A stretch of DNA of 42,436 bases, taken from positions 1 through 42,436 of the IMG/VR virus record IMGVR_UViG_3300030085_002354. One strand, given 5' to 3'. Under the pieces are notes generated by a model. It was not told the origin of the DNA, made no database searches, and saw only the letters and a list, made by a program, of their open reading frames with translations. Shown here in pieces: positions 1,798 to 26,491 of the stretch. The translations under genes were made by a program, and so were the position numbers. Source of the DNA: a virus. The first letter of the stretch is position 1. Every line of letters starts with the position of its first letter.

Positions 1798-1804
1798 GAA
1801 GATT

Positions 1805-4920: not shown

Positions 4921-4923
4921 AGC

Positions 4924-5472: not shown

Positions 5473-5474
5473 TT

Positions 5475-5624: not shown

Positions 5625-5633
5625 AAGAGGGAT

Positions 5634-5660: not shown

Positions 5661-5676
5661 CTTAAACGGAGGTAAC

Positions 5677-5817
5677 ATGGGGAGAAATCACGTTCCAGAT
5701 CATAGTTCTGATCTGATGAAGAAAGATTTTGGTACTGTTGTACTAATTACAGACCCAAAATCCGATTATTATATGAACTTGCATAAGAAAAAATCGGAAA
5801 ATAAAGATAGAAAATGA
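5677..5817 (+). CDS. Small hypothetical protein coupled to gp25
   Basis: The 46-residue product starts MGRNHVPDHSSDLMKKDFGT and ends with a lysine-rich tail. Its start has a strong GGAGG at 5668-5672, four bases upstream of the ATG, part of which can be hidden in a small hairpin. Its stop overlaps the gp25 start in an ATGA arrangement, so gp25 translation is probably coupled to it. It may therefore serve partly as a translational leader for gene 25. No family is recognised. Confidence 0.7.
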   Translation: MGRNHVPDHSSDLMKKDFGTVVLITDPKSDYYMNLHKKKSENKDRK

Positions 5818-8278: not shown

Positions 8279-11200
8279 ATGGAAAACAATATTAACAAGG
8301 TCTCTCAGTCTATTCTTAATCAGACTCCAGATTTTATTGGGTCTGATTATCCTTTATTCAATAAATTTATTGAGTACTACTACAAGTCTCAAGAAAAGAC
8401 TGGTCTTGGTCAAAATATTGTAAATAATTTCCTACAATATCTTGATATTGATAAACTGGATATTGGTATCTTGGATGGTTCTACTAAGATTGTAGAACCT
8501 ATCACTGATAAGAGTGAAACGATTGTTGTTGAGACTGTAGACCAATTCTTAGATAAGAATGGTTCTATCTTAATTGGTGATGAAGTAATTTATTATGAAG
8601 GTACTACAGATTCTCCCAATATTGCGTTAAGTCCTGGCATTTCATATGAGCAGGTAAAGTTAAAGTGGACTAGTCTTGCAACTATCATCAATTCTTTTGA
8701 TGGTACAACTCGTAGTTTTCCTCTGACATCTCAGTCAAGTCCTATTGCTCCACCTTCTGCACAGCATTTGATTGTTAGTGTTTATGATGAGGTTTTAGTT
8801 CCTGGAATTGATTACACTATCGATGGATCAAATATTGTATTCACGACTGCACCTAGAACTAGGATTGCATCCGATGATAATGCAGGAACGTACATCACAT
8901 ATCAAAGTGGTTTTGTTGAAAATACTATTGTAGGTCTTGATAATATCTCCAATGCTTTTGGTGAAGACAAGACTGAGTTCAAACTCACTAGAAATGGAGA
9001 AAAGTATGAACCCATCGTAACTGAGTATGTTATTGCTGTTTATGATAATAAATTACTCGTTCCGAAGGTAGACTTTTTCCTTGATAAGGATACTTTTATT
9101 TTTAATGAAGCACCTCTTAATGGTAGGTTCTTATCTGTATATTCTATTGAAGCACCCATTCCTTCATTTGGATCTGATGCTCTTGGATATGCTAGAGTAA
9201 ACGATGCAGGAGAACTGACTGCGATTAATGTTAACCAGACTGGATCTGGATATAGATTTCAGTACCCACCAAAAGTTTCTATTAATTCTACCACTACAGG
9301 ATCTGGTGCCGCAGCAACTGCTCTTGTTAATGGTGTTAAATCTTTTACTTTACTTGGTGGTGGTCAAGGATATAGCGATACAAATCCTCCTAGAGTAGTA
9401 ATTGAACAACCTACTGTTGCTGGTTCTGCTATTGCTGAACTAAAAGCAACTGTTACTAATGGTTCTATTTCCAATTTGGAAATTGTTAGTTCTGGTAGTG
9501 GATATACCTTTACTCCTAGAGTTACATTCCAACAACCTGGAGGGGCAAAATTAGCGCCCCCCACTATCATAAGTGGTAGTATTAGTGGTTCTATTACAAT
9601 TACTGCAGGTGGTAGTGGATATACTACAGCACCAGCGATTTACATCGATGAGCCTACTGGCACCAATCCAATCAGAGCGTCTCTTCAGGCAGTTCTTACG
9701 GATGGTGTAGTTACTAGTATCAATGTTCTGAATGCTGGTCAGGGTTATACAACCACACCTAGAATTGCTGTAGTTGAACCAACTGGAGCACAAGTTTTAG
9801 AAACTAAAGTTGATGGTGATGGTCGTGTTATCTCTATTGATCTTTTAAGTGGTGGTAGTGGATATGAAGATATTCCTTCTGTCTATATTGTAGATAATAG
9901 AACTAACGGTGGAACTGGTGCTACAGCAACAGCATCAATTTTTAATGGGCAAATTACTGATATTAATGTTGGTAATTTTGGTAGTGGATATAGTGCTGAC
10001 AATCCTCCAGAAGTTATCATTCAAGCACCCCCTCAAGCAGAAGCATCTGTTGAAATTGGTTTGAATGAGATTACAGGATTTAAGATTACTAAATCTGGAT
10101 CTGCATATCAAAAGTCTAAATTTACTGGTTGTGCCAGAGCAGCAAGTGGTGTTACTGAATATACTCAAGATGGTAATGCAGTATTTTCCAATAACACTTC
10201 GGCAGCTGCAGCATCTGCAAACACTGAAGTAAAATGCTTGGATGCTCTTTTTGTTAAGAGACTTCTTGACAAGTATACAGAACAATTCTTACCCGATGTA
10301 CCCGAACTCGATTATAAAAAGATCGATGTTCGTACTGCAATTAAATCGGTTAAAGATTTTTACTCTGCAAAAGGTACTTCTTTTAGTATTGCTTATCTAT
10401 TCAAACTTCTTTATGGTGAGCAAGTCACCATTTCGTATCCAAAAGATCAGATTATTAAACCCTCTTCTGCAACTTGGTCTATTGATACCATTCTTCGTGC
10501 AACTTTAGTTAGCGGCAATCCTGTAGATATCAAAGACGGTCTGCTTACACAAGAAGCAGATATTGCAGATCCTAACATTAAAGCAGCGAGTGCTCTAATT
10601 GAAAATTATATTTCTATTAAAACTTCTGATGTAGAAATTTACGAATTGGTTCTTTCTGAAGAAACTATTGAAGGATCTTTTACTGTTCCATATAAAACAA
10701 AACTTGCAGAACCTCTTGGCACTGAAGACAGTGTTATTACTGTTGACTCTACAATTGGTTGGCCAGAAAGAAATGGCGAGTTTGTTATCGGTGGAAGTGA
10801 AGTTGTCCAGTATAAGGAAAAATCTCTTAACCAGTTTATCGAGTGTACTCGTTCGGTAAATGGAATTGTTGAAGATTGGGATTCTGCAACTGAAGTATCT
10901 TCAAACTTTACAGTTTTTGTTAATAAAGGTACTGCTCAAGAAGTCGTATTAAATGTTGTTGGTATTGTTGATGCTCAACAGACAACATTGACCGATACTG
11001 GTTCGTATTATCTTACAGGGGATAAACTTTCGGTTTCTAAACTTGGTGGTACTTCAACTAAACCTGAATTGAAGACCTGGTTGTATAATGTCAAAAAACT
11101 GATTGAAGTCGAAAGCGTCACTTTTGGTGGTATTGATAATCGTTTTGCAACAATCACCTGCTCAAATCCTCATGGTTTGTTGGTTGGAGATCAGGTCACT

Positions 11201-14200
11201 GTTTATGGTGCAAATCCAATTATCTACAATGGATCTTTCTTAGTAACATCTAGGGATAGTGATACTGTTTTCCAGTACCAGTTACCTCAACCCGCAACAG
11301 TTGTACCTCAAGGAAATATTCTCGTTTCTGTTGACCTCAACAAAGGTAAGTCTGATAACAGTGCTGTTCTGAATTCTATTGGTCCTTATACAACTAACGT
11401 ACAGAACTCTTTCTTTAACGATAATTACGTTTACGTTGCTTCGACTGGTATTCCTAACTATAAGATTGGACCTTTTGTAGGATCTGCTCTTCTTCCTGGA
11501 AACCAACGCAAATTAAATCGTTTTCCATTAGCACCTACTACAATTTCTACTAAGAATGATATTTCTCCTGGTCCTATCGGCACTTGGGTAAATGGTGTTT
11601 CTATTTGGTCTTACAAATCTTCTACTACCAAAACTTTTGGACCAGTAACGAGTATTGATATTACTAATTCTGGTAGTGATTATGATGCAGCATCTCCTCC
11701 AACAATCAGTATTTCTGGTGGTGGCGGATCGGGTGCATCTGCTAGTGTTGTGGTTGATGGATCTATTACGGAAATTACTGTAGATCAAGGTGGTAGTGGG
11801 TATACTTCTTCTCCACTCGTTTCTATTGTCGGTGGAGGCGGTTCTGGTGCTGCTGCAACTGCAATTATTACAAAGGGTGTAGTTTCTAGAATTCTTATGA
11901 ATTCTGGCGGTACTGGTTATACTTCTCAACCTTCAATTACTATTGTTGGTGGTGGTGGAAGTGGTGCTACAGCGACTGCCTCTGTTAGAGGTCCTATTAA
12001 GTCTATCTCTGTTGATCAGGGTGGTGCTTCCTATACATCAAAACCAACTGTCTCTCTCAGTTCTGGTACTGGTGCTGTTGCTCAAGCAATTGTTAGTAAT
12101 GGTAGAATTATTTCTATCGCTATTATCTCTGCTGGTAGTGGATATACTACTGCACCAGAAGTAACAATTCAGGGTGATGGTTTTGGTGCTGTTGCTAGAG
12201 CAACAATTGACACCGATGGTGAAAATGCTGGTAGAGTTACTGGTATTACTATCATCAACAAAGGCATCAACTATGTTCAAGGAACTACAATCATCAATTT
12301 GACTTCTGTTGGTTCTAATGCCACATTTGAAGCAAATGTATTCCAATGGAATTATAACTTACAGAAAACTCAAACACTCGATGCTGCAAAGGGTGGTGTA
12401 TTTACTGGGTATAACAATCAGTATGGTGGTGAATATGCACACCTCTCCAATCCTCAAAGATTGAGATATATTCTCGGTGATAATCTTTTTGAAAATACTG
12501 CAGGTGCTATTTTAGAGCAGGAAGATCAATTAACTCACTCTCCTATTATTGGTTGGGCATTTGATGGCAATCCCATTTATGGACCTTATGCATATTCCGA
12601 TCCTACGGATCAATCATCTGAAATCGAAAGACTTGATAGTTCTTATAGACTAAAGACTAATTTAGTTGAGGATGCTATTAGCAATCCATATCCTGTTAGA
12701 ACTGCTGGTCCTCTCCTAACAGAGGAAGCTGCTGGTAATTTTGTAGAAGACTATGAATATGTCTTCGGTCTTGGTGACCTTGACCAATATAATGGTCGTT
12801 TCTGTAAGACACCTGATTTCCCTCAGGGCAGATATTGCTATTTTGTAACGATTGACACGACCGAAAATGGTGAACCAGTATTCCCATATGTCTTAGGACC
12901 TAGCTTTAACTCTGTTGTTGATTCTTGGAACCTCAACAAAGATGCTGTTCAGCAAAATATTCCTACAGGTGTTGTTCGCTATCGTGACCCATATGAAAAT
13001 GTTGATATTGATGTCGAACGTGCTCCAAATGCATCTACCAACGCTTTGACAACAGAAGGTGGTGATATTCTTCTGTTTGATGCTGAGGATGAAAATAGAG
13101 ATGGTATTATTGATGCAGCAGAACTTGCTGATCCTGATCAACTCTTTGAAGAATCACCTCTGCAACTCTTTGATTATTTCCCCAAGGTCAGATTTGATTC
13201 TAAAGTTGACATTGAAGTTGAAACTACTACCAAGTTTGAAGATGCATCTGTAACTGGGTTTATCATTGAAAATCCTGGTAAATCTTATCAGGTAGACGAC
13301 ATTCTTGTCTTTGACAATAGTGACACAGAAGGATCTGGCGTATCCGCTCGTGTTTCTAAAATTACTGGAGAAACTGCTACATCATATTCATACGAAACTG
13401 TTTCTGATAAAAACTATGGCGTACTGACAACTCAAAATCCACATAACATTGTTTCTGGGGATACGGTGTTTGTTAACTATACTCCTGTAATGGACAGCAC
13501 TAACAAACAGTTCGTTGTCCGTCAATTTAAAGGTATTGAACAAGTTATTATCAATCAAACTGGTTCTGGTTATGATGAAGAAATTCCTCCCACAATTATC
13601 ATTGATGGTGATGGAGAATCTGGAGAACTTAAGGCAAATGTAACTTCGGTTGGATCTATTGAAGTTGTAGACATCGTAAATTCTGGTTCTGGGTATACGA
13701 AGAACCCTAGAGTTATCTTAAGTCATCCTCAGGTCTTCAGGAAATCTGATTATTATGTCTCATTGGTTTCACATGAAAATTATGTGAAAATTAATGATGC
13801 TGTTGTTAATGACAACAAAGAAATTTTTGTTTGCGGTAAAACAAAAGAAGAGAATGGAAATGAAGTTGCATTTGTAGCAAAATTCTCCGCTCTTGGTGTT
13901 AAGGAATGGGAAAAAACTTTAGAAAGTCAAGATGGTGAAACTTACACAGAATTTACCAATATTGATGTAAATGGCGACAACATTTGGGTTGTTGGACAGA
14001 ACAAACCAAATTCTTCAATTCTTACTGCATATAATCCAGATGTAATTCTGGCAAAGTATGTTCAGGGATTGGATGGACTTAGTGCAACTTTAAGTTTCCA
14101 GAAAGGATACGCAGGTATCTCTGGTTCTAGTCGTTCTGATAATGTTTCTGTAGTCAGAAGATATTCTGATACTCGTTATATTATTGGTGGTTATACTAAT

Positions 14201-17200
14201 ACAAATTCTGGTAATCCTTACGATGGTTTCATTGCGTCTATTGACACCACAGGTAATTTTGCAGCGAAGAGAAAAATTGCTTCTGCATCTAAGTCTGAAA
14301 AAGTCACTGACTTGATTGTAGTTAATGATGCTGTCTATTTTATTATGGAATCCGCTGACACTAGTACTGAAGCTGATACCAGAGTATGTTTTGGTAAAGC
14401 GACTGTTGGTACAAGTGTAATTACAATTGAGTGGATTAAGGAACTCAATAATACTCTGTACTCTTTCTTAGATACAAGTCTCGTTAGTGATGAGTTTGAT
14501 GAATTCTATATTACATCAACTTTGAGACTTAAGTCTGATGATACCACTAAGGATAGTGTATGGGTTGGAAAACTTGATGGTGACGGTGATCTGTTATGGA
14601 ATTATCGTTATGTCGCACCTACTGGCAATACTGTTACTGCAGCACCCACAAGTGTAATCGACATCTTCGGTGATCTTAATATTGCATATACCAGAGAGGA
14701 TAACACTACTGGATATAAGACTGTTGATACTCTGAAGATTGGGTATGACGGTAAGATGAAGAAGCAAACCAATAATGAGTTCAATAAGAATAATATTGAA
14801 GGCATTACAACTCATACTCTTACTGTTGATAACTCTGGTGATGTATATGCCTTGGGTCAAACTTCTTGGAACAGAAACGAGTTTATCTTAGACTTTACAG
14901 GTGGGGAAACCGCTGATGTAACAGGTCATTATACTCCTGTTTACACTGGCACTAGTGGTGCAATTCAGTATCTTGGTGATGCTGTTTATATGCCCGCATA
15001 TCAAACTGCAACTCCATCTACTTGGGAAAATTCAAATATCAAAATTACTGCAGCATCTTTAGGAACTAAACTCGCAGATGATTGGACTTGTGAATTCATG
15101 GTCTATAAGAATGGATCTGAATATAATGACTTCAGTCAAACTCAAGTCACATTGATGGCAATTGGTGATGCTACTGTCTCTACAGGTGGTCTTTGGTTGT
15201 ATTATGATTTGTCTAGTGGCAGACTTGAACTGGTTGTCACAAATAACACAACGGCTATTAACTCTGCAGGTAGTGCTCTTCAGTCTACAGCAACAACAAT
15301 GTTTGCTAATAATAGCTGGCAATTCATTGGTGTTAAAAAATCGGGCAATACTTTTACAGGATATGTAAATGGTATTCAGGTATTTACTGGTACTATTGCA
15401 GATACTTCTCTTGGTAATAAAGATCTCTTCTTTGGCAATCTTCCTGGTAGAAATGGAACCTTGGGCGAATTCCGTTCTAACGAACAGTTCCAAGGAACCA
15501 TGGATAATATTCGCCTTAGAAACAGAGCAGTTACTCCCACAGTTCCTTCTGATGTTGATGCATTACCACCTACAGATACGTTTGCTCTTGCATATGATTG
15601 GACTGATGATGCTTGGTTTACTACCAATCTCAACAGATACGACTATATCGATTACAATGGATGGGTTCTGAAAACTGATAAGAATTCTGATGCTGCTAGA
15701 TTGGGCGATAAAGGAGTTCAAACAAATACCAATGTTGGATTTGCTAGAACTGCAGTTACTCCTGTAACTGGAACTACACTCACTATTGATAGCACTGGAT
15801 TTGCTCTTGGTGAAGCTGGTCTGCAAACTCTTGACTTTGATGATGCGACTACAACAATGCAAGAAGATACTGAAACTCTTGCATATACCGCAGATACTTG
15901 GAGTTCTAGAACAGCAACTGTTCCTTCTCCTGGATCTCAGAAGTTAAAAGTTTCTGCAGTTGTTAAAAACAGATACTATATGAAGGTTACGAACACTGTC
16001 AAGATTGACAATGTTCAAGAACTTACTATCAACCAGGCATTTAACTTTACCGTTGGTGCTAAGTTGAGATTGAATAATTCTTCAGGTGCGTTTGTTAATA
16101 GTGGATACATTCTTCGTGTTGACAAACCCAATAGAAAAGTATATGTTGCTGTCAATAACAATGCCTGGTCAGATGATTTAAATACTGGCAATTTACTTAC
16201 AGAACAGTTTGCTGAGCAAAGTACCTATGGTATTTCGGGTCCTGTTCCTCAGGATACTAATGAAATTGTCAATTATGTATTCAGTGAAATTGATAATACT
16301 ACGCCTGGAACGTTTGATATTGATCTGAATGATTTTGATGTTGATGGCACAGCAAATTCTGGATCTGGGGATCTCGATAGTTTTGCCAAATTCAAACCAT
16401 TTGATGCCAGTGTATACAGTGTACAAATTGATGAAATTTCTGGATCTTCTTCGTATATCGTTGGTTCAGTAGTTAATATTGCAGATAGCAACATTTCTTA
16501 CAATGCTGCATATTCTACAGCACAAATTACAGGTCTGACAGGAGTTACTAAGATTACTCTTATTACAACTCTTGATAAAATTCTTCAGTGTACTGCTGTT
16601 GCTAATACTGATGAAGTATACATTATTACTGGTAGCAAGCATTATTTAACTGCTGGAGAGAACATTTTTGTTGATGGTAATCCTTCTAGAGAAGTTAATA
16701 GTGTAACTTATGACGAATATGACGGATCTTTCGTTGTAGATCGTGTTGTTAGCTCCAGAGAGTTTATTTACAAACTTCCTGCTGTTGCAGTATCTGACCC
16801 TGCTACATCTGCAGGAAATGTCAGCATCTTTGCTAAGTCTCCAGTTCTGAAGATGTATTATGGTCACCAGTATTTGTTTGACCTCAGTCACTCTTCAATG
16901 GTTGGTGCAAATCTTTCATTCTCTAAAGATAGTCTGAATAAACTTGAATATTCGTTCAACTCGATTGAAAGAATTGGTACACCTGGTGTCACTGGTGAAG
17001 GTCAACCAACACCTACTGTTAAACTCAAAGTTGATAGAGACATTGTTACTAATATCTCGTATTACTTCGATCCTTCTAGAACTGGTGATAGTTCTCCTAT
17101 CGCATCTTCTAGTTATCTCGATATTGTAGATTCGCCTTATGTCGGAACTTTCACTGTAAGTAGCACTGCTGGTGGAACTATCACTACAGGTGATAATATC

Positions 17201-20200
17201 ATCAAATTCCCTCTGATTAACGAACCTGAGGGCGAGGCTACTATTAATAGTGTATCGTATAGCACCTCTTCCACAAAGGCAGTTGGATCTATTTCGGATG
17301 TCCGAATTGTTAACTCTGGTGGTTTCTATTCCAAACTTCCTGTTGTTAGTAGCATTATTTCCTCCAGAAAAATTGAAAGAGTTGATATTAAAGAACCTGG
17401 TACTGAATACGCTGTAGGAACATATAATAGTGTACCTATTGGTGGTGATGGTGAAGGTGGTTTAGTTAGTATTACTGTTGCTGATGGAACCGATTCTGAA
17501 GGTGTTAGCATTCCTGGTCAAATTCAAGAAGTTGTCGTTACCAGTCCTGGTAAAGGGTATACTACTGCAACTATTGATGTTGAATCTATTGATGGAATTC
17601 TGGGTGCAGGTCTGACAGGATCTGGTGCAGAATTAGAAGTTGTTATTCCTCCTTTCGGTAGTGGTGCATCTATCTTCACTAAAGGTGATAAAGTTGGTAA
17701 GATTAAGAAACTGAAGAATAATAACTTCGGTTATGATTATCCTCATGACTATACTTTGCGTCCTGAGATTACATTCCCCATCAATGCTCAGTTGACATCT
17801 ACCAGTATTCTGGACAGCATTACAGTTACGGATCCTGGTTCTGGTTATTCTCAGGCACCTGCTGTGGTCATCACTGGTGGTGGTGGAACTGGAGCAATTG
17901 CTGAAGCTTCTATTCGTAATGGTCGTATTGATCAAATCCTCGTTAAAGATCCTGGATCTGGATATTCTTCCGAACCTACTGTTTCTTTGAAGTCTTCGTT
18001 TAACTACGTTGTTAACCTTGACTTGGGTCTTTTACAGTTCGCTTTCCCTCATGGTATTCAAAACGGTGCAGAAGTCACTTTAAGTGTAACTGACACTGGT
18101 GATGGTGCAGACTTCCCTCTCGCATCTGGTGCTTTGGGTCGATTGAATGGAACTACAACTTATTATGCAATTGCAGGCACTGCAAATTCTCTTGAGACTG
18201 ATCAGTTAAAACTTGCAATTACTTCTGCAAACGCAGAACTTGGTGATGCAATTACATTTGCTAACGCTGGTACTGGTCGTCAGTCTGTTCTGACAGAATC
18301 TTTTGGTGCAACTGCAACTGCAAATGTTATCACTTCAACTTTCTTAGAAGGGGAATTGGTATATCAGGGAGATAGTCTTGCTGCTGCAACTGCAACTGGT
18401 TACGTTTCTACTAATAGTGGTTGGCAAGTTGGTCCTAGAGTTCTCAAGATTGTTGATTATACTGGCGACTTTGCAAGTAATCAAAGAATTACTGGTGTCA
18501 TTTCTAAGTCTTCTGGTATTATCAGTGATCTTAAGATTGCTAAAGGTGTTCTTGATATTGGTTCGATTACTAAAACAACAGGTCAGTTTATTGATGATGT
18601 TGGTAAACCTTCTGAAATCATTCAGAAAATTCAAGATTCTTATTACTATCAAGACTTCTCTTATGCTGTTAAGTCCTCTGTATCGATTGATGACTGGAAA
18701 GACATTCTTATCCGTAATGTTCACCCAGCATCCTTTAAGGTCTTTGGTGAACTGAACCTTAATGAATATGGAAATATTCCTAATAAGGAGACTGATTTTG
18801 AATTAACCAAGTCGGTCGAACTTGCAAGAGAAGCAATCGTTCCTAACATTCAAAGTTTCTCTCTTGTAGAACCTGTCTACTCTGAATTTAATAATACTGA
18901 AGTTCTTTTCCGTCAAAAGAGATTGACATCTTCAGAGAACATTCTTACATCTGTTGTACAGCGTATTGATGATATTTCTAATCTGTTTGATGGTGAAAGA
19001 ACTCAATTCCCTCTACAAGTAGCAGGAAATAATGTTGTTGCGAATGCAAACCAGTTGATGATTATTCTTAACGGTGTTGCTCAAACTCCCAACACTTCTT
19101 TTGAGATCCAAGGAGAATCGATTGTCTTCTCTGAACCTCCTCAACCACCTGCTAGCGTAAAGTATGTAAACATTACAATCAGTCAAATTTCGACTGTTCG
19201 TATGTCATTTACAAATATTAGTGGCATCTTCCCTCTTGCAGGTGGAACAGTTGTTGGTGTTTCTTCTACTGCAAGACTTACCGTTACTAGTGTTGAGGGT
19301 GACGATATCCTTGGTTTTGTTACCGAAGGTACATTCATTGCTGGTGAACTTTGTACGGTTGGTGCAACAGGTTTCTCTGCTAACCTCAGTGGAACACCTA
19401 CTGCAGTTACTAATCTTGGATTGTTTGCTTTTGGTGAGAAAGTCACAAACTTCACTAATGATACTGCAAAAGTTGAGCAGATCAACCTGGAAAGAGGTCA
19501 AGAGACACCTCTCGCAGATCTGAGATATACAATTGGTGCAGCAACCACTAGTATTGAACTTATTTCTGCAACTTCTGCAACAGATGCACCTGTTGCAGAC
19601 GGAACATTTGTTGCAGGTGATGAATACCAGATTGGATCTGAAATTGTTACTATTAATACTATTACTAATGGTTCTGAATCTACAACAGTAACCGTAACTA
19701 GAGCAGTCAACGGAACAGCAGCAACTTCTCACCAAGAAGATACTCCTGTATATGGAACTGAAATTGAGGTTACTAATAACCTTACTCTGAGTAAGACCGC
19801 TGGTACTTATCAATCTACTCCTGGATTGTTTGACATTCAACTTGACGACGTTATCATCGGTGCTTCCTCTGGTGTTGTTGCTCGTGTCACATCTACTGCA
19901 GTATATACTGATCCTGAAACTAATACTCCTATTGGTCAGGTTAATATTTCTGATGGTTCTTCGTTCTTTGGTCTTCTCTTCAACAGAATTGCTTCCCAAA
20001 CCTATCCTAACGTAGTTCTGGATGATATTTCACAGTCTACTGTAAGTATTGTTGACTTTAGTGATAACTCTACTCCATTTGACCTGAAGTTCCCTGCAAA
20101 TGAAATTATTAACAACTATGTAATTCCTTATGATAATGCCAGTGGTGATCTGCAGGCAGATGAATTTATTCGTAATTATAAGATCGAATATGGTAACAAT

Positions 20201-23200
20201 AGTGGTGATTTCCTTGTCGGTGAAGCGGGCAGAGTTAGAAAACTTACATTCACTGATAGATTTGGTGAAGGGTTCTTCGCAGCAGGTCAGGTTATTAGAA
20301 CTACTGATACAAAAGCAGAAGTTGTTGGATACAATCAAGCAAAGTCTACTCTGTATCTTGGTAAGATTGGTAGAACTCAATCCACAGGTGAAGATTATCA
20401 TGCAGTCACATTCAATGCTGATGCTCAATTAGATACTGCTCAGAAGAAGTTTGGTACAGCATCCCTGTTACTTGACGGAACTGGCGATTATCTTTCCATC
20501 CCAACTTCCACAGAGTTTGGTTTTGGAACGGGTGCATTCACCATTGATTTCTGGATTCGTCCTGCGAATGTTACTGGTGCAAAAGCACTGATTGATTTCA
20601 GAACTACTGGAACCGAGACTTCTCCTTATCTGTACCTTGACGGTGCAAATGTCAAGTATTTCAACAATGGAAGTGTAGTTATTACCACTACAACCAACAT
20701 GGTTGCAGATACCTGGTATCACGTCGCATTGTCTAAAACTGGATCTACTACAAAACTGTTTATTAACGGTACTCAGGAAGGTGGTGACTATTCCGATGGA
20801 ACTAACTATGGAACTACAAAACCAATCAGAATTGGTCTGACAATTGCATCTTCAGATGGTTTTGCTGGTCATATTGATGAAGTTAGAGTTTCTAACAGTG
20901 CTCGTTACACAGCAAACTTTACTGCACCCACTGGTATTCATCAGGGAGATGTAAATACTAAACTTCTTCTCCACCTTGATGGCGCAGACGCTCAAACCTA
21001 TACGGAAGATTGGTCTGGCGCAGAAGGATTTACTAAAGGTGAAGAGTTTAATAATGATGCAATTCTGGCAACTTCTAGAGTTACAGGAGCACCTGCTGGA
21101 TTTGCTGGTAAAACCCACAGATATTATGATGCAGCAGCACTTATTGAGAAAAACAAGGACTTTATTGCGAAAGAAGCAGTTTATCTCTTAACTCAGCAAT
21201 ATCCTAGTTTGACAATTCCTGGTGGTAACGTCAATTGTGAAGACGACATTCGCGATATTCTTGGCGCTATTATTCAAGATATGCGTAACGGATCCAACAG
21301 TCACATGTGGGATGCCTCTGCACTCTATGTTGATAGAACCGCTAATCCAGTTACAATCAGTCATGTTGACACTGAAGTAACTGAGACTGTTTGGGCATAC
21401 GATAAAGTTAAAGAGATGCTCCAGTACATCATTAACAATGTTCTCTGGACAGTCTCTGGTAATCATGGTTTGACCCAAAAGACCGATACCACAATTACAG
21501 ATTCGAGTTCTTCTTCTCTGACTACTTTCAGTGTCAGCACTGCAACGTATGATCACACTACAGGTGATCTGGTATTGACAATTGGATCTCACTCTCTTAC
21601 GACTTCTAGTCGCATTGCTTTAGCGGGTGAATCGATTGTATTCACCTGTGCAAGTGATGGTAATGATCGTGAAATTGCATATCCTGATAAGGATTCCGCT
21701 TCTTATAATTCAGTTCTTCCAGTCACTGCTGTTGGTGCAACTACAATCACTGTCAATGTTGGTACTCCTCCTACAGACAGCACTGGTTATTCTGCACATA
21801 CCTTCGTTAGTGCAACTGCTAATGCAGTAACTGAACTTGATTACACTACAGGTGACTGTGCTGATGTATGGACCACTGTGGGTAATCTCATGGATATCTT
21901 AACCGATACGCTTGAGCAAGCAGATCTTGCAACTCCTGTAGATCACCTTGCTTCTGTTACTAAGGTTACTCCCGCAGTCGAATTCCTTGGTGCTACGGTT
22001 AATGCGTATCTGGATACCGTGTTTGATATCACTTATCACAACGCTACCGATGATGTTGCATACACCAATCAAATTGATGAAGACGGTCGTTACAGGTTTA
22101 GAGATGCTGCGGGTCTGATCCGTGCAAACCGTGCTGTTATTGTTGATAAAGCGGCAGCAGACATGCTGACGAGATATCCCACTCTGGCACAAACCATGCC
22201 TCGTAATGAAAATGGTGGTAGTACCGATGGTACGCTTCGTTGTAAGACTGACCTCGGATTGATCTTAGACGCAATTGCAAATGATATTGAAAGAGATGGT
22301 AATGAAGACACCGTAACTGCTGCTAAATTCTATCTTGGCGCAAATGATGTACTGCAACATATTCGTCTGCAAGTTTGGCAGTCTGTTTATGCACACGATC
22401 GTCTTGGTTTCTATGCAAAGCAAGCAGTTACTGGTGATTTAGACAGCACTAATACTGAAAATATTATCGTTGGTGATTGGGGTATTACTAATGATGCTGG
22501 CGGTTGTGCAAACGTCAAGACTGCAATTGATACTTTGATTACAACAATCAATGATATCATTGCTCCCACAGGCAATGACTTCAATATTGCTGCAGATCGT
22601 CTGCACTTTAATGAAGATTATATTGCTGAAGAGATTACTGGTTTGACTACTGCAGAGTTTACATATACTCTGAACAATATTAACTACAGTGCTCTGTCTT
22701 ATCCTGGATCTACTGGTGAGGCAACTTGCCAAAGAGATTTGAAACTTATTCTTAAGAGTATCATCTCTGATCTTCAGACTGGTGGAAATAATAGTACGAT
22801 TGCTGCCATTGAACTGTATCTCAATGCAAATCTCACTCTTAACCACATTGAGAATGAATTACTTGCAACTGTTTACTCCATTGAACAACTTAAAGTTGTT
22901 GGTGAAAAAGCAGTTAGAAATCTTCTCTATGATCGTTTTGCTACAGTTACTGGTGATCAATATGCTGCACAGCATACTAATGAAACCGCTTATAGAGATA
23001 GTGAAACACCAACCGATATCGATCAAGTAGTCTATCGTTTGAGAGATCTGGTTGATATTGCTGTTGGTATTCTGGCACCTGGAAAGGATGAAGCAAGAAG
23101 TGCTTCCAAGAACCTCCTTTATAATAAGAACTACTATAGAGACGAAATTCAAAATATCGTCAATGCTCAGTTTGGTACTAATGCTTGGCAGTATACCGAC

Positions 23201-26200
23201 TTCCTTGAAGGTCTGGTAGAAGATGTTGTTCATGATTTGGTTACGACTGATGTAACTGAAGAGGTTTCTGCATACACAATTACTTTGAGTGCTTCTACTG
23301 GCACATTTGCAGTGGGTGAAACTGTTACATCTAGTGGTGGTGGTACGGCAACTGTTCTTGAGTGGGATGGTGATGATGAAATCCTTTATGTTGGTGCTTT
23401 CACGGGCACCGCATGGGCAGCAGCAGACACCCTGACCGCTCCTTCCACAGCAACAGGTACAATCGCTACCAGCGGTGTAAGTTCTGCATATGATTGGTTC
23501 ACCGAACCCACAAATGTTAAGATCCTCGCTCGCGCAAGAGGAATTACTTCTAATATTTCTGGTCAAATTTCAGGAACCAACCTCTTTACAAACCCAGAGA
23601 ACTTTGCTGCAAACTGGTTAGTCAATAGTCTTGGTGGTACAGATTCTCTGTTAATTGCTAATAATTCTATTGCAGCACCTGACAGCACTGTTACTGCAGA
23701 AAAATTCTATGCTGCTCCTAATAATGGTGGTGTTCATGACACATATAGAGATTACTCTCTGACTGCTTTTGAAACGTTTGACTCTGGTTCTGTCACATTC
23801 GATAATGGTACAGAAACCTTTGATACTGGTGCTGTTGGTGTTGATGCAACGCAAACATACACCTATTCAATCTTCTTCAAGTCTGCTGGATCTCAATCTG
23901 TAAGATTCCAGTTGCAACTTGATCCTGGCACTGCTGCAGAGCAGAATATCTTCTTTGATCTTAACCTAAATGCTGGAACCACTGGTTCTCTGTTTACACC
24001 TCAAGGTGGTATGACAGGTGACGCATATGGTGCTGTTCCTTACGGTGATGGTTGGTATAGAGCATATATTACAACTACATTCTCCTTCGGTTTTAGTACT
24101 TTACGCGCAAGAGTTGTTGTTAACTCTGCTAATGGTGCTTCTACCTGGACTGGAAATGGTAATACGGGTGCATACTTCTGGGGTCTCAAACTCAATAAAG
24201 GTGCTTTGGATCCTTACACTGCTGTCAGTGGTGAAATATTCTATGCTGATACTGAATTTAATATCAAACAGTTTGCTATCAATCTGCTTGAAGATTACAT
24301 GGGTCAGGCGCTTGATAACACCCTGACATCACCTTCTACAAATTCTGGTTTCTATAGCTACTATGATTCCACTGCTGCAGGTGATTACACTAAAGCAACT
24401 ATTCAGAGATCTATCCGTTACGGATTTAATATTATTCGTGAGCAACTTTCTGTTGACACATATTATACCACTATCACTCAAGTTAATGGTATTAGTGTTC
24501 CCGCTAAGACATTTGGAACACGCGACGTTCCTGTTGGTATTTCTGGTGGACTTAACAATAGTGATTTTATCTATGGTCTCTCTAGTGATCAATACGCAGA
24601 ACTCGAAAAACTTACTCTCAATGAGGGTCTGATTGTTCAGGTTTATAAGCGTTTTAGAATTGACGGCGACATTACAGATGGTCCTTTCACCATGAATGAG
24701 AACGTTGCTAAGCAAGGTGCTCCTTCTGTCACTGGTGTTGTTTACGGGTTCTTTGAAGATGAGAACTATAAGTATCTTGATGTTCGTGTTACGGCTGGTC
24801 CTTGGGCAGTTACGGACACTATTGTTGGTGCTGAGAACTCAACTTCTGCTCAAATTAGTGCTATTGAAGATCGTCTTCACATTATCGATCTTAAGGGTGG
24901 ATTTACTGAAGATGTTCCTTTCAAGGGATACACTAGTGGTGAAACTGCAGAACCTACAACCTTCCTCAAAGTTCAGGCTGCTACAACTAATAATACTGGT
25001 GGTAAACTCACAGTTGATACTGAGACTTTACTTGGATCCTTTGAATCTACTTCTGTCATCTACCCCGAATCCTCCAGACAGTACATTGATGTTAGCAAGT
25101 ATGCTGGTCTTGACGTTCGCGTTGGTCAGAGGATTGCATCAGAGGGTTATATTAGATTGGGTATTAGTATTGTAAGTGGTTTGAATGTCTTTACTGAGGG
25201 CAACCGTCTTTATAAAGTTGTTAATGGTAATCAAGATGCTAACACTTACGCAGTTATCACTGAAGTAGATCTTGATAATAACTACATCTATATCTCTGAA
25301 GTTCAAGGAACCTTACAAAATGGTGATTTAGTTGGTGATTATGGAATTGCAGAATCCTTCCCTGTTGGATATGCGTCTATCTCCACAAAAGTTGCTACAG
25401 CAGGTGCTGCAGCAGCGTTGGTTCAGGATATTAGAACGGTTGGTCTTAATAAGAGACTTTATCTCAGTGATATCCGTGGAACATTTGATGAGAAAGATTC
25501 TGTTAAAGGTGCTGATGGATATAGAGCACTTGTCTTGGATAAGGTTGATCTTAAGGCAAGAGTTAAGCGTTCTTTCAGAGGATTTGATGGAACTCAAACT
25601 AACTTTAAACTTACTACGGGTACAGGTACACAATATCTTCCTGATCCTGCTGGTCATCTTCTCATCTTCATTAACGGTGTTCTGCAACCTCCTGGTGCGA
25701 CAAATGCATTTACTGCATTCTCCGATGAAATTCAGTTCACTGAAGCACCCGAACTCGGTGCATCGTTTACAGGTTTCTACGTTGGTAAACTGAGACAACT
25801 CGATGATATTTCGTTTGAGTTCGATTCTTTACGTCAATCTTTCAACCTGAAGCGTAATGATGTCTTCTATTCTTTGACTTTGACCGAAGGTGTTCAGTCT
25901 AGTGTCATCAGACCAGAAAATAACATCATTGTTTCACTTAACGGTGTTCTGCAAGAACCTGGAGTTGGTTTTGAGATTGTTGGTTCTAGAATTATCTTCT
26001 CTGAAATTCCTCGCGTTGGTTCTACATTCGTTGCGTTCTCTTACGTTGGTTCTGAAGCAGACGTTGATGCTGCTGAAGTTGTTCCTCCTGTTGAACCTGG
26101 TGACTTCATTGACATTCAGGGTGAGACTTCAGATAGAGAAGTTGCTCTTATCGAATCTTCTAACTCTTTGATTACGTTTGATTATCTTGGATCTGTCTTT

Positions 26201-26491
26201 GGACAAGATGCTCAAGCGACCGCAAATCTCACTAGCGGATTTATCAAACAAGTAAGAGTTACTGCAGGCGGATCTGGATATGCGTCTAGACCCACTGTAA
26301 GACTTGATTCTATCTCTGGATTTGACGGAAGTGTTCGTGCTTTGGTTGGTGTTGCTGGTGTTGAACTTAGTAATACTGGTACTGGATATCAAAACCCAGT
26401 TATCGAAGTCGAAACTAGCGTGCCTGATGATTGGACAGCACCTAATCTTGCAGATTATGGTGAAGAACTAGTTGACCCAGAAATCCCATAA
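8279..26491 (+). CDS. Giant 6070-residue mosaic baseplate/fibre protein (gp7 position)
   Basis: One uninterrupted 18.2-kb frame. It lies between gp6 and the gp9/gp10-type gene, where T4 has gene 7 (1032 residues), so a wedge role is inferred from position. Approximate layout by residue: 1-115 head domain; 139-295 two NGV-type modules; 318-610 eight G-S-G-Y repeat units; 654-804 helical region with DFYSAKGTSFSIAYLFKLLY; 804-880 IGxExIxY module; 1075-1548 YHYH-like domain interrupted at 1124-1350 by six repeat units; 1604-1615 EF-hand loop; 1825-2197 beta-propeller-like region; 2211-2419 LamG-like domain; 3000-3245 repeats; 3452-3492 YYYQDFSYAV...HPASF segment; 3571-3640 NGV-type module; 3741-3830 IGxExIxY module; 4043-4238 second LamG-like domain; 4280-4990 alpha-helical Cys repeats; 5099-5318 carbohydrate-binding-like domain; 5767-5925 two NGV-type modules; about 5968-6070 repeats. 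No catalytic site recognised. Confidence 0.9.
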   Translation: MENNINKVSQSILNQTPDFIGSDYPLFNKFIEYYYKSQEKTGLGQNIVNNFLQYLDIDKLDIGILDGSTKIVEPITDKSETIVVETVDQFLDKNGSILIGDEVIYYEGTTDSPNIALSPGISYEQVKLKWTSLATIINSFDGTTRSFPLTSQSSPIAPPSAQHLIVSVYDEVLVPGIDYTIDGSNIVFTTAPRTRIASDDNAGTYITYQSGFVENTIVGLDNISNAFGEDKTEFKLTRNGEKYEPIVTEYVIAVYDNKLLVPKVDFFLDKDTFIFNEAPLNGRFLSVYSIEAPIPSFGSDALGYARVNDAGELTAINVNQTGSGYRFQYPPKVSINSTTTGSGAAATALVNGVKSFTLLGGGQGYSDTNPPRVVIEQPTVAGSAIAELKATVTNGSISNLEIVSSGSGYTFTPRVTFQQPGGAKLAPPTIISGSISGSITITAGGSGYTTAPAIYIDEPTGTNPIRASLQAVLTDGVVTSINVLNAGQGYTTTPRIAVVEPTGAQVLETKVDGDGRVISIDLLSGGSGYEDIPSVYIVDNRTNGGTGATATASIFNGQITDINVGNFGSGYSADNPPEVIIQAPPQAEASVEIGLNEITGFKITKSGSAYQKSKFTGCARAASGVTEYTQDGNAVFSNNTSAAAASANTEVKCLDALFVKRLLDKYTEQFLPDVPELDYKKIDVRTAIKSVKDFYSAKGTSFSIAYLFKLLYGEQVTISYPKDQIIKPSSATWSIDTILRATLVSGNPVDIKDGLLTQEADIADPNIKAASALIENYISIKTSDVEIYELVLSEETIEGSFTVPYKTKLAEPLGTEDSVITVDSTIGWPERNGEFVIGGSEVVQYKEKSLNQFIECTRSVNGIVEDWDSATEVSSNFTVFVNKGTAQEVVLNVVGIVDAQQTTLTDTGSYYLTGDKLSVSKLGGTSTKPELKTWLYNVKKLIEVESVTFGGIDNRFATITCSNPHGLLVGDQVTVYGANPIIYNGSFLVTSRDSDTVFQYQLPQPATVVPQGNILVSVDLNKGKSDNSAVLNSIGPYTTNVQNSFFNDNYVYVASTGIPNYKIGPFVGSALLPGNQRKLNRFPLAPTTISTKNDISPGPIGTWVNGVSIWSYKSSTTKTFGPVTSIDITNSGSDYDAASPPTISISGGGGSGASASVVVDGSITEITVDQGGSGYTSSPLVSIVGGGGSGAAATAIITKGVVSRILMNSGGTGYTSQPSITIVGGGGSGATATASVRGPIKSISVDQGGASYTSKPTVSLSSGTGAVAQAIVSNGRIISIAIISAGSGYTTAPEVTIQGDGFGAVARATIDTDGENAGRVTGITIINKGINYVQGTTIINLTSVGSNATFEANVFQWNYNLQKTQTLDAAKGGVFTGYNNQYGGEYAHLSNPQRLRYILGDNLFENTAGAILEQEDQLTHSPIIGWAFDGNPIYGPYAYSDPTDQSSEIERLDSSYRLKTNLVEDAISNPYPVRTAGPLLTEEAAGNFVEDYEYVFGLGDLDQYNGRFCKTPDFPQGRYCYFVTIDTTENGEPVFPYVLGPSFNSVVDSWNLNKDAVQQNIPTGVVRYRDPYENVDIDVERAPNASTNALTTEGGDILLFDAEDENRDGIIDAAELADPDQLFEESPLQLFDYFPKVRFDSKVDIEVETTTKFEDASVTGFIIENPGKSYQVDDILVFDNSDTEGSGVSARVSKITGETATSYSYETVSDKNYGVLTTQNPHNIVSGDTVFVNYTPVMDSTNKQFVVRQFKGIEQVIINQTGSGYDEEIPPTIIIDGDGESGELKANVTSVGSIEVVDIVNSGSGYTKNPRVILSHPQVFRKSDYYVSLVSHENYVKINDAVVNDNKEIFVCGKTKEENGNEVAFVAKFSALGVKEWEKTLESQDGETYTEFTNIDVNGDNIWVVGQNKPNSSILTAYNPDVILAKYVQGLDGLSATLSFQKGYAGISGSSRSDNVSVVRRYSDTRYIIGGYTNTNSGNPYDGFIASIDTTGNFAAKRKIASASKSEKVTDLIVVNDAVYFIMESADTSTEADTRVCFGKATVGTSVITIEWIKELNNTLYSFLDTSLVSDEFDEFYITSTLRLKSDDTTKDSVWVGKLDGDGDLLWNYRYVAPTGNTVTAAPTSVIDIFGDLNIAYTREDNTTGYKTVDTLKIGYDGKMKKQTNNEFNKNNIEGITTHTLTVDNSGDVYALGQTSWNRNEFILDFTGGETADVTGHYTPVYTGTSGAIQYLGDAVYMPAYQTATPSTWENSNIKITAASLGTKLADDWTCEFMVYKNGSEYNDFSQTQVTLMAIGDATVSTGGLWLYYDLSSGRLELVVTNNTTAINSAGSALQSTATTMFANNSWQFIGVKKSGNTFTGYVNGIQVFTGTIADTSLGNKDLFFGNLPGRNGTLGEFRSNEQFQGTMDNIRLRNRAVTPTVPSDVDALPPTDTFALAYDWTDDAWFTTNLNRYDYIDYNGWVLKTDKNSDAARLGDKGVQTNTNVGFARTAVTPVTGTTLTIDSTGFALGEAGLQTLDFDDATTTMQEDTETLAYTADTWSSRTATVPSPGSQKLKVSAVVKNRYYMKVTNTVKIDNVQELTINQAFNFTVGAKLRLNNSSGAFVNSGYILRVDKPNRKVYVAVNNNAWSDDLNTGNLLTEQFAEQSTYGISGPVPQDTNEIVNYVFSEIDNTTPGTFDIDLNDFDVDGTANSGSGDLDSFAKFKPFDASVYSVQIDEISGSSSYIVGSVVNIADSNISYNAAYSTAQITGLTGVTKITLITTLDKILQCTAVANTDEVYIITGSKHYLTAGENIFVDGNPSREVNSVTYDEYDGSFVVDRVVSSREFIYKLPAVAVSDPATSAGNVSIFAKSPVLKMYYGHQYLFDLSHSSMVGANLSFSKDSLNKLEYSFNSIERIGTPGVTGEGQPTPTVKLKVDRDIVTNISYYFDPSRTGDSSPIASSSYLDIVDSPYVGTFTVSSTAGGTITTGDNIIKFPLINEPEGEATINSVSYSTSSTKAVGSISDVRIVNSGGFYSKLPVVSSIISSRKIERVDIKEPGTEYAVGTYNSVPIGGDGEGGLVSITVADGTDSEGVSIPGQIQEVVVTSPGKGYTTATIDVESIDGILGAGLTGSGAELEVVIPPFGSGASIFTKGDKVGKIKKLKNNNFGYDYPHDYTLRPEITFPINAQLTSTSILDSITVTDPGSGYSQAPAVVITGGGGTGAIAEASIRNGRIDQILVKDPGSGYSSEPTVSLKSSFNYVVNLDLGLLQFAFPHGIQNGAEVTLSVTDTGDGADFPLASGALGRLNGTTTYYAIAGTANSLETDQLKLAITSANAELGDAITFANAGTGRQSVLTESFGATATANVITSTFLEGELVYQGDSLAAATATGYVSTNSGWQVGPRVLKIVDYTGDFASNQRITGVISKSSGIISDLKIAKGVLDIGSITKTTGQFIDDVGKPSEIIQKIQDSYYYQDFSYAVKSSVSIDDWKDILIRNVHPASFKVFGELNLNEYGNIPNKETDFELTKSVELAREAIVPNIQSFSLVEPVYSEFNNTEVLFRQKRLTSSENILTSVVQRIDDISNLFDGERTQFPLQVAGNNVVANANQLMIILNGVAQTPNTSFEIQGESIVFSEPPQPPASVKYVNITISQISTVRMSFTNISGIFPLAGGTVVGVSSTARLTVTSVEGDDILGFVTEGTFIAGELCTVGATGFSANLSGTPTAVTNLGLFAFGEKVTNFTNDTAKVEQINLERGQETPLADLRYTIGAATTSIELISATSATDAPVADGTFVAGDEYQIGSEIVTINTITNGSESTTVTVTRAVNGTAATSHQEDTPVYGTEIEVTNNLTLSKTAGTYQSTPGLFDIQLDDVIIGASSGVVARVTSTAVYTDPETNTPIGQVNISDGSSFFGLLFNRIASQTYPNVVLDDISQSTVSIVDFSDNSTPFDLKFPANEIINNYVIPYDNASGDLQADEFIRNYKIEYGNNSGDFLVGEAGRVRKLTFTDRFGEGFFAAGQVIRTTDTKAEVVGYNQAKSTLYLGKIGRTQSTGEDYHAVTFNADAQLDTAQKKFGTASLLLDGTGDYLSIPTSTEFGFGTGAFTIDFWIRPANVTGAKALIDFRTTGTETSPYLYLDGANVKYFNNGSVVITTTTNMVADTWYHVALSKTGSTTKLFINGTQEGGDYSDGTNYGTTKPIRIGLTIASSDGFAGHIDEVRVSNSARYTANFTAPTGIHQGDVNTKLLLHLDGADAQTYTEDWSGAEGFTKGEEFNNDAILATSRVTGAPAGFAGKTHRYYDAAALIEKNKDFIAKEAVYLLTQQYPSLTIPGGNVNCEDDIRDILGAIIQDMRNGSNSHMWDASALYVDRTANPVTISHVDTEVTETVWAYDKVKEMLQYIINNVLWTVSGNHGLTQKTDTTITDSSSSSLTTFSVSTATYDHTTGDLVLTIGSHSLTTSSRIALAGESIVFTCASDGNDREIAYPDKDSASYNSVLPVTAVGATTITVNVGTPPTDSTGYSAHTFVSATANAVTELDYTTGDCADVWTTVGNLMDILTDTLEQADLATPVDHLASVTKVTPAVEFLGATVNAYLDTVFDITYHNATDDVAYTNQIDEDGRYRFRDAAGLIRANRAVIVDKAAADMLTRYPTLAQTMPRNENGGSTDGTLRCKTDLGLILDAIANDIERDGNEDTVTAAKFYLGANDVLQHIRLQVWQSVYAHDRLGFYAKQAVTGDLDSTNTENIIVGDWGITNDAGGCANVKTAIDTLITTINDIIAPTGNDFNIAADRLHFNEDYIAEEITGLTTAEFTYTLNNINYSALSYPGSTGEATCQRDLKLILKSIISDLQTGGNNSTIAAIELYLNANLTLNHIENELLATVYSIEQLKVVGEKAVRNLLYDRFATVTGDQYAAQHTNETAYRDSETPTDIDQVVYRLRDLVDIAVGILAPGKDEARSASKNLLYNKNYYRDEIQNIVNAQFGTNAWQYTDFLEGLVEDVVHDLVTTDVTEEVSAYTITLSASTGTFAVGETVTSSGGGTATVLEWDGDDEILYVGAFTGTAWAAADTLTAPSTATGTIATSGVSSAYDWFTEPTNVKILARARGITSNISGQISGTNLFTNPENFAANWLVNSLGGTDSLLIANNSIAAPDSTVTAEKFYAAPNNGGVHDTYRDYSLTAFETFDSGSVTFDNGTETFDTGAVGVDATQTYTYSIFFKSAGSQSVRFQLQLDPGTAAEQNIFFDLNLNAGTTGSLFTPQGGMTGDAYGAVPYGDGWYRAYITTTFSFGFSTLRARVVVNSANGASTWTGNGNTGAYFWGLKLNKGALDPYTAVSGEIFYADTEFNIKQFAINLLEDYMGQALDNTLTSPSTNSGFYSYYDSTAAGDYTKATIQRSIRYGFNIIREQLSVDTYYTTITQVNGISVPAKTFGTRDVPVGISGGLNNSDFIYGLSSDQYAELEKLTLNEGLIVQVYKRFRIDGDITDGPFTMNENVAKQGAPSVTGVVYGFFEDENYKYLDVRVTAGPWAVTDTIVGAENSTSAQISAIEDRLHIIDLKGGFTEDVPFKGYTSGETAEPTTFLKVQAATTNNTGGKLTVDTETLLGSFESTSVIYPESSRQYIDVSKYAGLDVRVGQRIASEGYIRLGISIVSGLNVFTEGNRLYKVVNGNQDANTYAVITEVDLDNNYIYISEVQGTLQNGDLVGDYGIAESFPVGYASISTKVATAGAAAALVQDIRTVGLNKRLYLSDIRGTFDEKDSVKGADGYRALVLDKVDLKARVKRSFRGFDGTQTNFKLTTGTGTQYLPDPAGHLLIFINGVLQPPGATNAFTAFSDEIQFTEAPELGASFTGFYVGKLRQLDDISFEFDSLRQSFNLKRNDVFYSLTLTEGVQSSVIRPENNIIVSLNGVLQEPGVGFEIVGSRIIFSEIPRVGSTFVAFSYVGSEADVDAAEVVPPVEPGDFIDIQGETSDREVALIESSNSLITFDYLGSVFGQDAQATANLTSGFIKQVRVTAGGSGYASRPTVRLDSISGFDGSVRALVGVAGVELSNTGTGYQNPVIEVETSVPDDWTAPNLADYGEELVDPEIP
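9238..10110 (+). repeat. Eight glycine-repeat units, first block of giant gene
   Basis: In-frame coding repeats of roughly 35-50 codons each, marked by TGSGYRF, GGQGYSD, SGSGYTF, GGSGYTT, AGQGYTT, GGSGYED, FGSGYSA and SGSAYQK. Between markers each unit follows the plan x-P-x-V-x-I, a Gly/Ala-rich turn, then an NGxIxxIxV strand. The DNA of neighbouring units is similar but not identical, so homologous exchange between units is plausible. Confidence 0.85.
11650..12320 (+). repeat. Six glycine-repeat units inserted in YHYH-like domain
   Basis: Units marked by NSGSDYD, QGGSGYT, SGGTGYT, QGGASYT, SAGSGYT and NKGINYV, with Gly-rich turns such as GGGGSGASASVVV and GGGGSGATATASV. They interrupt the YHYH-like domain, whose first part (WVNGVSIWSY) ends near 11625 and whose main part resumes near 12320. 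Confidence 0.85.
13088..13123 (+). other. EF-hand-like calcium loop inside giant protein
   Basis: Codons 1604-1615 of the giant gene encode DENRDGIIDAAE, a canonical twelve-residue EF-hand loop: Asp at 1, Asn at 3, Asp at 5, Gly at 6, Ile at 8, Asp at 9, Glu at 12. Only one loop is seen, as in isolated or dockerin-like calcium sites. Calcium binding is inferred from the motif. Confidence 0.65.
21116..23260 (+). repeat. Alpha-helical Cys repeats in giant gene
   Basis: Three clear copies and a partial fourth of a 110-130-residue helical unit begin near codons 4280, 4605, 4775 and 4940. Shared landmarks are D-A-A-x-L-I or an equivalent helix start, a YP-containing loop, one Cys (VNCEDD, LRCKTD, ATCQRD), the helix D-x-x-x-I-L-x-x-I-x-x-D, and a later helix containing V-x-x-x-Y-A-x-D or V-Y-S-I-E. 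A beta-rich HSL...TITVNVG module separates copies one and two. The repeats are unlike the surrounding beta-rich sequence. Confidence 0.75.

Follow-up and report, generated by a model that had tools for sequence, protein, structure and literature searches.

A giant gene 7 product of a T4-like marine cyanophage that contains phycobiliprotein-fold domains, putative bilin acceptors

The closest described relative of the protein considered here is the T4-GC969 protein of cyanophage S-SM1 (SSM1_102, labelled 'T4-LIKE GC: 969'; family PHROG 701), one of 41 proteins detected by mass spectrometry in purified S-SM1 virions (Sullivan et al. 2010, PMC3037559). In cyanophage S-CREM2, a 'baseplate wedge, intermediate' protein of 1937 amino acids (aa), encoded beside inner wedge proteins, yielded 91 unique virion peptides (PMC10665884), and some database records already name members of the giant family baseplate wedge protein or initiator. 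The window analysed here is the whole 42,436-nucleotide stretch of IMG/VR virus record IMGVR_UViG_3300030085_002354; it belongs to a T4-like cyanomyovirus, with DNA similarity to Synechococcus and Prochlorococcus phages extending across it, and it encodes an orthologue of the S-SM1 protein that is known here from sequence and whose N-terminal 833 residues match 475 phage records, nearly all cyanophages:

8279 to 26491, + strand: giant gp7-lineage baseplate wedge or virion structural protein of 6070 aa, orthologue of PHROG 701 and T4-GC969

This frame is an ordinary member of an already known giant family (PHROG 701 / T4-GC969). It matches the 6180-aa S-SM1 counterpart end to end at about 75% identity and lies in the same gene order, and its differences from that family amount to ordinary divergence, with two variable regions (residues 1600-2800 and 4000-5600) that differ in their inserted modules. 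The protein is not unique. The suggestion, made in an earlier note on this DNA, of a side structure of the baseplate wedge gains support from the published presence of the S-SM1 orthologue in virions; the overall interpretation in that note is partly supported. Our preferred reading, which we consider probable, is that gene 7 of a T4-like marine cyanophage encodes the giant and that the core of the protein has been enlarged by accreted parts that include phycobiliprotein-fold domains, putatively bilin acceptors. For the two homologies within it, the gp7 lineage of the giant and the relation of its domains to phycobiliproteins, our confidence is high.

Phycobiliproteins (PF00502: phycocyanin, phycoerythrin, allophycocyanin) share with the giant a globin-like fold of about 143 residues, the Cys84/Asp87 bilin site and, in the second of its repeats, a GIT..G.C motif resembling the surroundings of beta-Cys153. 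Unlike phycobiliproteins, to which identity over the fold is 10-16%, the giant's domains stand in tandem in a baseplate protein, are predicted, and have X/Y helices that are not confidently modelled. They occupy residues 4280-4910:

21116 to 21451, + strand: phycobiliprotein-like repeat R1, residues 4280-4391 (PF00502; hhalign); a beta insertion comes next and reaches about 21859
21983 to 22573, + strand: phycobiliprotein-fold domain R2, residues 4569-4765 (AlphaFold model, VIA-align, Foldseek, hhalign)
22241 to 22243 and 22250 to 22252, + strand: C4655 and D4658 of R2, equivalent to Cys84/Asp87
22505 to 22507, + strand: C4743 of R2, beta-Cys153-like
22586 to 23008, + strand: phycobiliprotein-like repeat R3, residues 4770-4910, with C4817/D4820 (hhalign in register)

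The profile of residues 4270-5090 has phycobiliproteins as its top PDB matches (best E 0.0036), and over the same residues PF00502 'Phycobilisome' reaches 34.3 bits (cut-off 22.2; E 2.8e-8) with two stretches summed, single stretches falling below the cut-off in a six-frame search; the family also matches 33 of 36 relatives. Fold evidence comes from a template-free AlphaFold2 model with a mean predicted local distance difference test score (pLDDT) of 79.8. Among its best 50 Foldseek matches in the PDB, all are phycobiliproteins (all probability 1.00) except two haemoglobins, and the 50 VIA-align matches listed are without exception phycobiliproteins (Z 16.7-18.9), phycoerythrin and phycocyanin among them, the top example being 7ssf_H at Z 18.9 and 2.2 A over 143 residues. 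These VIA-align matches cover model residues 298-493 only, that is, protein residues 4567-4762, or R2; model residues 301-335 have pLDDT below 50, and this is where one would expect the N-terminal X/Y helices through which phycobiliproteins form alpha/beta heterodimers and (alpha-beta)3 rings. Compared by hhalign with 143 phycobiliprotein open reading frames from cyanobacterial genomes, R2 gives E 1.2e-5 and 4.1e-6, R1 4.6e-4, and R3 0.0033 (8.6e-4 against alpha subunits), while reversed or shuffled controls give E 0.02 or worse.

In all three repeats, a phage Cys-x-x-Asp falls in register on the bilin-site Cys84/Asp87 (C4320/D4323 in R1). The C..D pair is present in 29 of 36 relatives for R1, 34 of 36 for R2 and 15 of 36 for R3. 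Counts of the pair were taken from an alignment whose members had been picked out by a tblastn search with the entire region, and from hidden Markov model hits that include copies lacking the pair; a separate unit alignment, chosen by the C..D pattern itself, is biased with respect to C..D conservation. In R1 and R2, the two residues are never separated among the 36 relatives but kept or lost jointly. The R2 motif WGITNDAGGCA lies directly before the last helix, is almost invariant as WGITND.G.CA (Cys in 34 of 36) and, in a low-stringency alignment, falls on the GIT.GDC of beta subunits, that is, on beta-Cys153. The identity of these domains, of which at least three stand in tandem, is well supported; a fourth repeat considered at residues 4899-4999 (R4) has zero sequence support. 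The earlier note had listed this part of the protein as 'helical Cys repeats' among unrelated modules, and so misjudged it and missed the fold. In the open-access literature searched, we came across no earlier description of phage tail proteins with phycobiliprotein domains, and, as far as our tools and that literature reach, the domains in this giant are undescribed.

The gp7 lineage follows from gene order together with three collinear profile matches. The locus between gp6 and a gp9-like connector is the gene 7 position (gp25-gp6-X-gp9), here as in S-SM1 and as previously proposed, and in profile-profile comparison (hhalign) three short stretches of the giant are collinear with gp7 proteins of 460-1032 aa:

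8279 to 8434, + strand: gp7 core piece A, residues 1-52 (PDFIGSDYPLFNKFIEYYY; hhalign)
10226 to 10498, + strand: gp7 core piece B, residues 650-740 (IKSVKDFYSAKGTSFSIAYLFKLLYGEQVTI; hhalign, PF23786)
18566 to 18808, + strand: gp7 core piece C, residues 3430-3510 (YYYQDFSYAVKSSVSIDDWKDILIRNVHPASFKVFGE; hhalign)

Piece A matches the gp7 that Stenotrophomonas phages encode (503 aa; residues 9-49, E 4e-6) and, weakly, T4 gp7 654-675 (E 0.05). Piece B matches T4 gp7 733-761 (E 1e-7), phiN3 (E 2.7e-12) and Menderavirus (Stenotrophomonas phages; E 7.6e-11), and it reaches 28.6 bits against PF23786 Baseplate_wedge (cut-off 27). Piece C is closest to the gp7 of pelagiphages (HTVC008M family; E 6.5e-16), with further matches to phiN3 (E 2.9e-7), Menderavirus (E 2.5e-6) and, weakly (E 0.0027) but collinearly, T4 gp7 865-893. 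Pieces A and B bear out the two segments for which a gp7 relation had been suggested (1-115 and 654-804); piece C was missing from that list. The three stretches come in the same order in T4 gp7 (1032 aa), at the same locus after gp6, but there they lie within about 240 residues (654-893), whereas in the giant they are spread over about 3500, and no counterpart of the N-terminal 650 residues of T4 gp7 was detected in it.

The gene product that follows gp6 varies widely in length, from 503 aa in Stenotrophomonas phage Ps15, 1006 in phiN3, 1016 in HTVC008M and 1032 in T4 to 3274 in Syn1, 4225 in ACG-2014f, 4446 in P-HM1 (annotated gp7), 6180 in S-SM1 and 6817 in ACG-2014d. It clearly exemplifies how a core baseplate protein can grow across related phages, here about 13-fold (503 to 6817 aa). 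The smallest gp7 seen has 460-503 aa, in Stenotrophomonas phages and relatives (L089, 4240-5751; L096-L099); it is close to a bare wedge core and a good structural minimum for gp7.

Phage records with the domain number about 350, nearly all of them named as cyanophages. A tblastn search with R2 found 350 phage records, all named Synechococcus, Prochlorococcus or 'cyanophage', and a search with a fibre-type copy found 341, all cyanophages except one 'marine' record. Hits per genome number 16 in S-RSM4, 12 in S-PM2, nine in Syn1, six each in P-HM1 and P-HM2 and three in S-SM1, and zero in T4, phiN3, HTVC008M and Ps15. The largest domain-bearing stop-to-stop frame among the isolates searched, of 7312 codons, is in P-SSM4 (hits near 70551-75521). 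In Syn1, S-RSM4, S-CAM1 and others, the domain resides in 'short tail fibre' proteins. Those encoded beside cpeT (Syn1_032, SRSM4_214 of S-RSM4, and that of S-PM2) resemble the giant in carrying several copies with an invariant C..D, but they are products of another gene at another locus, and the gp7 of their phages has no such domains, or fewer. The cpeT-linked fibre copies match host phycobiliproteins at E 7.5e-9, and PF00502 is over its cut-off in three of three fibre frames tested. Among these cpeT-linked copies, whose mean pairwise identity is 37%, the Cys and the Asp are each kept in 87 of 87, and 78% have an Arg directly before the Asp, like the CxRD motif of the host proteins.

In Syn1 (L245, 1199-8219) and S-RSM4 (L244, 438-8360), the domain-bearing fibre gene follows cpeT at a distance of one or two protein-coding genes. 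At 21 of 22 IMG/VR cpeT loci (L280-L301), a frame with 3-7 copies lies on the same strand as cpeT and starts 0.2-2 kb downstream of it; the remaining contig stops short of the fibre position, such that the arrangement is kept in 21 of 21 informative loci. Of 23 cyanomyovirus genomes, 19 have both the domain and CpeT, four (P-SSM2, S-SM2, S-SSM7 and P-TIM68) have neither, and none is discordant. Fisher's exact test gives P 0.001 for the first 19 genomes, which are not independent. In a gp6 tree, P-SSM2, which has neither, is sister to S-CAM7 plus ACG-2014f, which have both, and the pattern requires at least two changes, so that the statistical weight is that of two joint changes rather than of 23 points. 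PebS and HO1 can be rejected as partners of the domain because P-SSM2 and S-SSM7 carry them without it. The CpeT of P-HM1 is said, in work from 2017 attributed to Gasper, to bind phycoerythrobilin tightly with no transfer to a host beta subunit; such behaviour would be in keeping with an acceptor of the phage's own. Cluster C cyanophages (S-CREM2) have an S-type lyase, cpcV, in place of cpeT (PMC10665884).

Under the preferred reading, a gp7 core of about 250 residues would have gained internal insertions at two places, of about 600 and 2700 residues, and about 2500 further residues at its C terminus. The core pieces would hold the giant in the gp6/gp7 wedge. The accreted parts would form a large peripheral appendage composed of beta arms with GSGY repeats, lectins of the LamG and carbohydrate-binding-like types, and the phycobiliprotein-fold tandem. 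The phycobiliprotein-like domains may then accept bilin during infection, aided by CpeT, the phage's T-type lyase, and the appendage, both pigmented and sugar-binding, may take part in host contact. To judge from sequence and model, it is possible, though we incline slightly against it, that at least one domain carries bilin. The broader proposition, that many marine cyanophage virions are chromoproteins with bilin covalently bound to baseplate or tail-fibre giants, loaded by CpeT during infection and perhaps aiding adsorption through light sensing or gating, photoprotection or host recognition, we regard as rather doubtful.

Several observations weigh against the preferred reading. Sequence similarity to phycobiliproteins is concentrated in the first half of the fold, and support for the remainder comes from the predicted model. 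In R2, the pair has Thr rather than Arg directly before the Asp, and R3 has its pair in so few relatives. Fibre copies lack the GIT..C motif and have the Cys84-type site only, yet T-type lyases serve the beta-Cys153 position (PMC10452541). In the S-SM1 group, cpeT (at about 14.6 kb) is apart from gp7 (55.8-74.4 kb), the CpeT call for ACG-2014f comes from annotation and tblastn only, not from PF06206, and pebS and ho1, both of which P-SSM2 and S-SSM7 have, do not track the domain. Furthermore, the model of the core is too poor for a fold match to T4 gp7: its helices have pLDDT below 50, Foldseek ranks the T4 chain 5iv5_BJ third at probability 0.03, and a PDB sequence search with the core alignment returned no match.

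Alternatively, the phycobiliprotein-fold domains may be colourless, a globin-like helical module captured from the host and used as a spacer, oligomerisation or receptor-binding unit, with the Cys and Asp conserved for structural reasons. We give this close to an even chance. Copies without the C..D pair, which make up 38 of 134 in gp7 giants and frequently include R3, are consistent with such a module, as are the placement of the domain in tail and baseplate proteins beside lectin-like modules and a copy number that varies from 0 to 16 hits per genome. It is harder to reconcile with a Cys and an Asp that stay invariant in cpeT-linked fibres of such low mutual identity, with their joint retention or loss in R1 and R2, and with the way the domain's presence tracks a gene of a lyase family without discordance.

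If some virion domains do act as bilin acceptors, they would suggest a purpose for CpeT, the pigment-attaching enzyme that cyanophages carry. The role of cyanophage phycobilin genes (pcyA, pebS, ho1) and cpeT has been described as a mystery or as unresolved since 2010 (PMC3037559, PMC2984593), and a candidate acceptor in the virion, with the Cys and Asp kept and an occurrence that agrees with that of cpeT in all 23 genomes, makes this old puzzle directly testable. Virions carrying CpeT-loaded bilin would also explain why cpeT is retained in phages of Prochlorococcus, which lacks standard phycobilisomes. Light-dependent adsorption has been described for several marine cyanomyoviruses (PMC2984593), and P-HM2 is unable to adsorb in the dark (PMC7112961). 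The domain, with six hits in P-HM2 and twelve in S-PM2, is a concrete candidate for this behaviour, although we think it quite unlikely that a bilin-bearing domain underlies the light-dependent adsorption of some cyanophages. Even without pigment, a captured host antenna fold would have been reused in a viral adhesion machine.

The remainder of the giant consists of inserted and appended modules, with GSGY repeats recognized in a motif scan at residues 322-580, 1172-1300, 1762-1815, 3091-3240 and 5998-6040:

9176 to 10078, + strand: insertion 1, GSGY beta repeats, residues about 300-600 (motif scan; AlphaFold model all-beta, mostly pLDDT 80-92)
12335 to 12856, + strand: YHYH domain, residues 1353-1526 (PF14240, E 1.9e-17, 64.3 bits against a cut-off of 25)
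13076 to 16678, + strand: variable region 1, residues 1600-2800 (per-200-residue identity table)
13088 to 13123, + strand: EF-hand-type loop, residues 1604-1615 (from the sequence)
15074 to 15538, + strand: first LamG, within variable region 1 (PF13385, E 2.3e-8, 34.8 bits against a cut-off of 27.6)
20474 to 20905, + strand: second LamG, residues 4066-4209 (PF13385, E 1.4e-20, 74.4 bits against a cut-off of 27.6)
23840 to 24208, + strand: carbohydrate-binding-like stretch, residues 5188-5310 (PDB 6tb9, RcGTA head-spike fibre, E 2.2e-6)
25586 to 26053, + strand: NGV modules, residues 5770-5925 (PHROG 18673, E 2.9e-16)

Most modules named in the earlier note are therefore present: the GSGY repeats, YHYH, two LamG, an EF-hand-type loop, a carbohydrate-binding-like stretch and the NGV modules. 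The beta-propeller was confirmed by no search and is rejected, residues 1830-2230 having zero matches to gp7 sets or PDB sequences. The likeness to the RcGTA head-spike fibre Rcc01080 (6tb9; E 2e-6 over residues 5188-5310) concerns a single module of the 6070-residue giant. In a per-200-residue identity table, the blocks kept among relatives are about 600-1600, 3000-3600 and 5800-6000, while the blocks 1600-2800 and 4000-5600 vary, with insertions of up to 473 residues in relatives; the lectin-like modules in the variable regions would fit a host-contact appendage. This modular make-up, together with two variable regions that hold large insertions in relatives, could also reflect a very long side structure of the wedge, built from adhesive modules that are unrelated to one another, perhaps cleaved into pieces at assembly and with no special connection to light or pigment. 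We consider this unlikely, as a curated family, profile-profile comparison and fold comparison all back the relation to pigment proteins.

The domain could instead mimic host phycobiliproteins within the infected cell, sequestering lyases, linkers or bilins, or anchoring tail assembly on phycobilisomes. Homology to host antenna proteins and the association with cpeT are compatible with such mimicry, as is the reported rise in phycoerythrin per cell upon S-PM2 infection (PMC2984593). We nevertheless hold it to be very unlikely: the domain belongs to a baseplate protein found in virions, and it is present in P-HM1 and P-HM2, phages of Prochlorococcus MED4, whose genus is without standard phycobilisomes (PMC2984593, PMC3037559).

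Finally, an assembly chimera or a fusion of genes, for which size alone and two broken loci among 80 related contigs might speak, has a negligible probability, given the same frame in independent isolates and dozens of contigs, a dN/dS well below 1 and the equal length of PHROG 701. The frame runs from an ATG at 8279 to a TAA at 26489-26491, 6070 codons with zero internal stops and zero N; at 18,213 of 42,436 bases, it fills 42.9% of the window and is 5.9 times the length of T4 gp7, in agreement with the earlier estimates of 43% and about six times. Complete frames among the 80 IMG/VR loci are single frames of 6149-6706 aa, in incomplete contigs the homologous frame stays open up to the contig ends, and all six 1000-residue slices match PHROG 701 (6136 positions) in register, from profile positions 2 to 6135. 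In several pairwise comparisons with relatives, the ratio of nonsynonymous to synonymous substitution rates (dN/dS) is 0.03-0.31 in each 400-codon block, confirming that the uninterrupted frame is under purifying selection. An assembly join is excluded because isolates and contigs share the frame, PHROG 701 matches end to end and dN/dS is low, and no homologue with the regions as separate genes was found among the relatives examined; neither outcome that the earlier note had named as refuting its view was thus encountered. The two broken loci show local damage, not gene splits. L047 has a lone in-frame TAA around 3701 (about codon 819), its frame of 6300 codons being open elsewhere, which points to either a sequencing error or a broken copy, and L023 has a short local deletion and frameshift around 3660, inside the YHYH-end region.

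Around the giant, the + strand encodes, in order, a PHROG 719 wedge protein, a PAAR protein, gp25, gp6, the giant, the gp9-like connector, PHROG 708 and PHROG 438 proteins and a 2445-aa frame. Three of these neighbours define the gene 7 position:

5814 to 6233, + strand: gp25 homologue (PHROG 261, E 1.2e-69)
6233 to 8272, + strand: gp6 homologue (PHROG 219, E 4.7e-229)
26515 to 27741, + strand: gp9-like wedge/tail-fibre connector (PHROG 677, E 1.9e-200; S-SM1 counterpart annotated gp9)

The PHROG 708 wedge protein (27745-31962 of the window, 1405 aa) has GSGY repeats and a YHYH-region stretch in common with the giant, as seen in PHROG cross-matches, which suggests that these adjacent baseplate genes may have exchanged modules.

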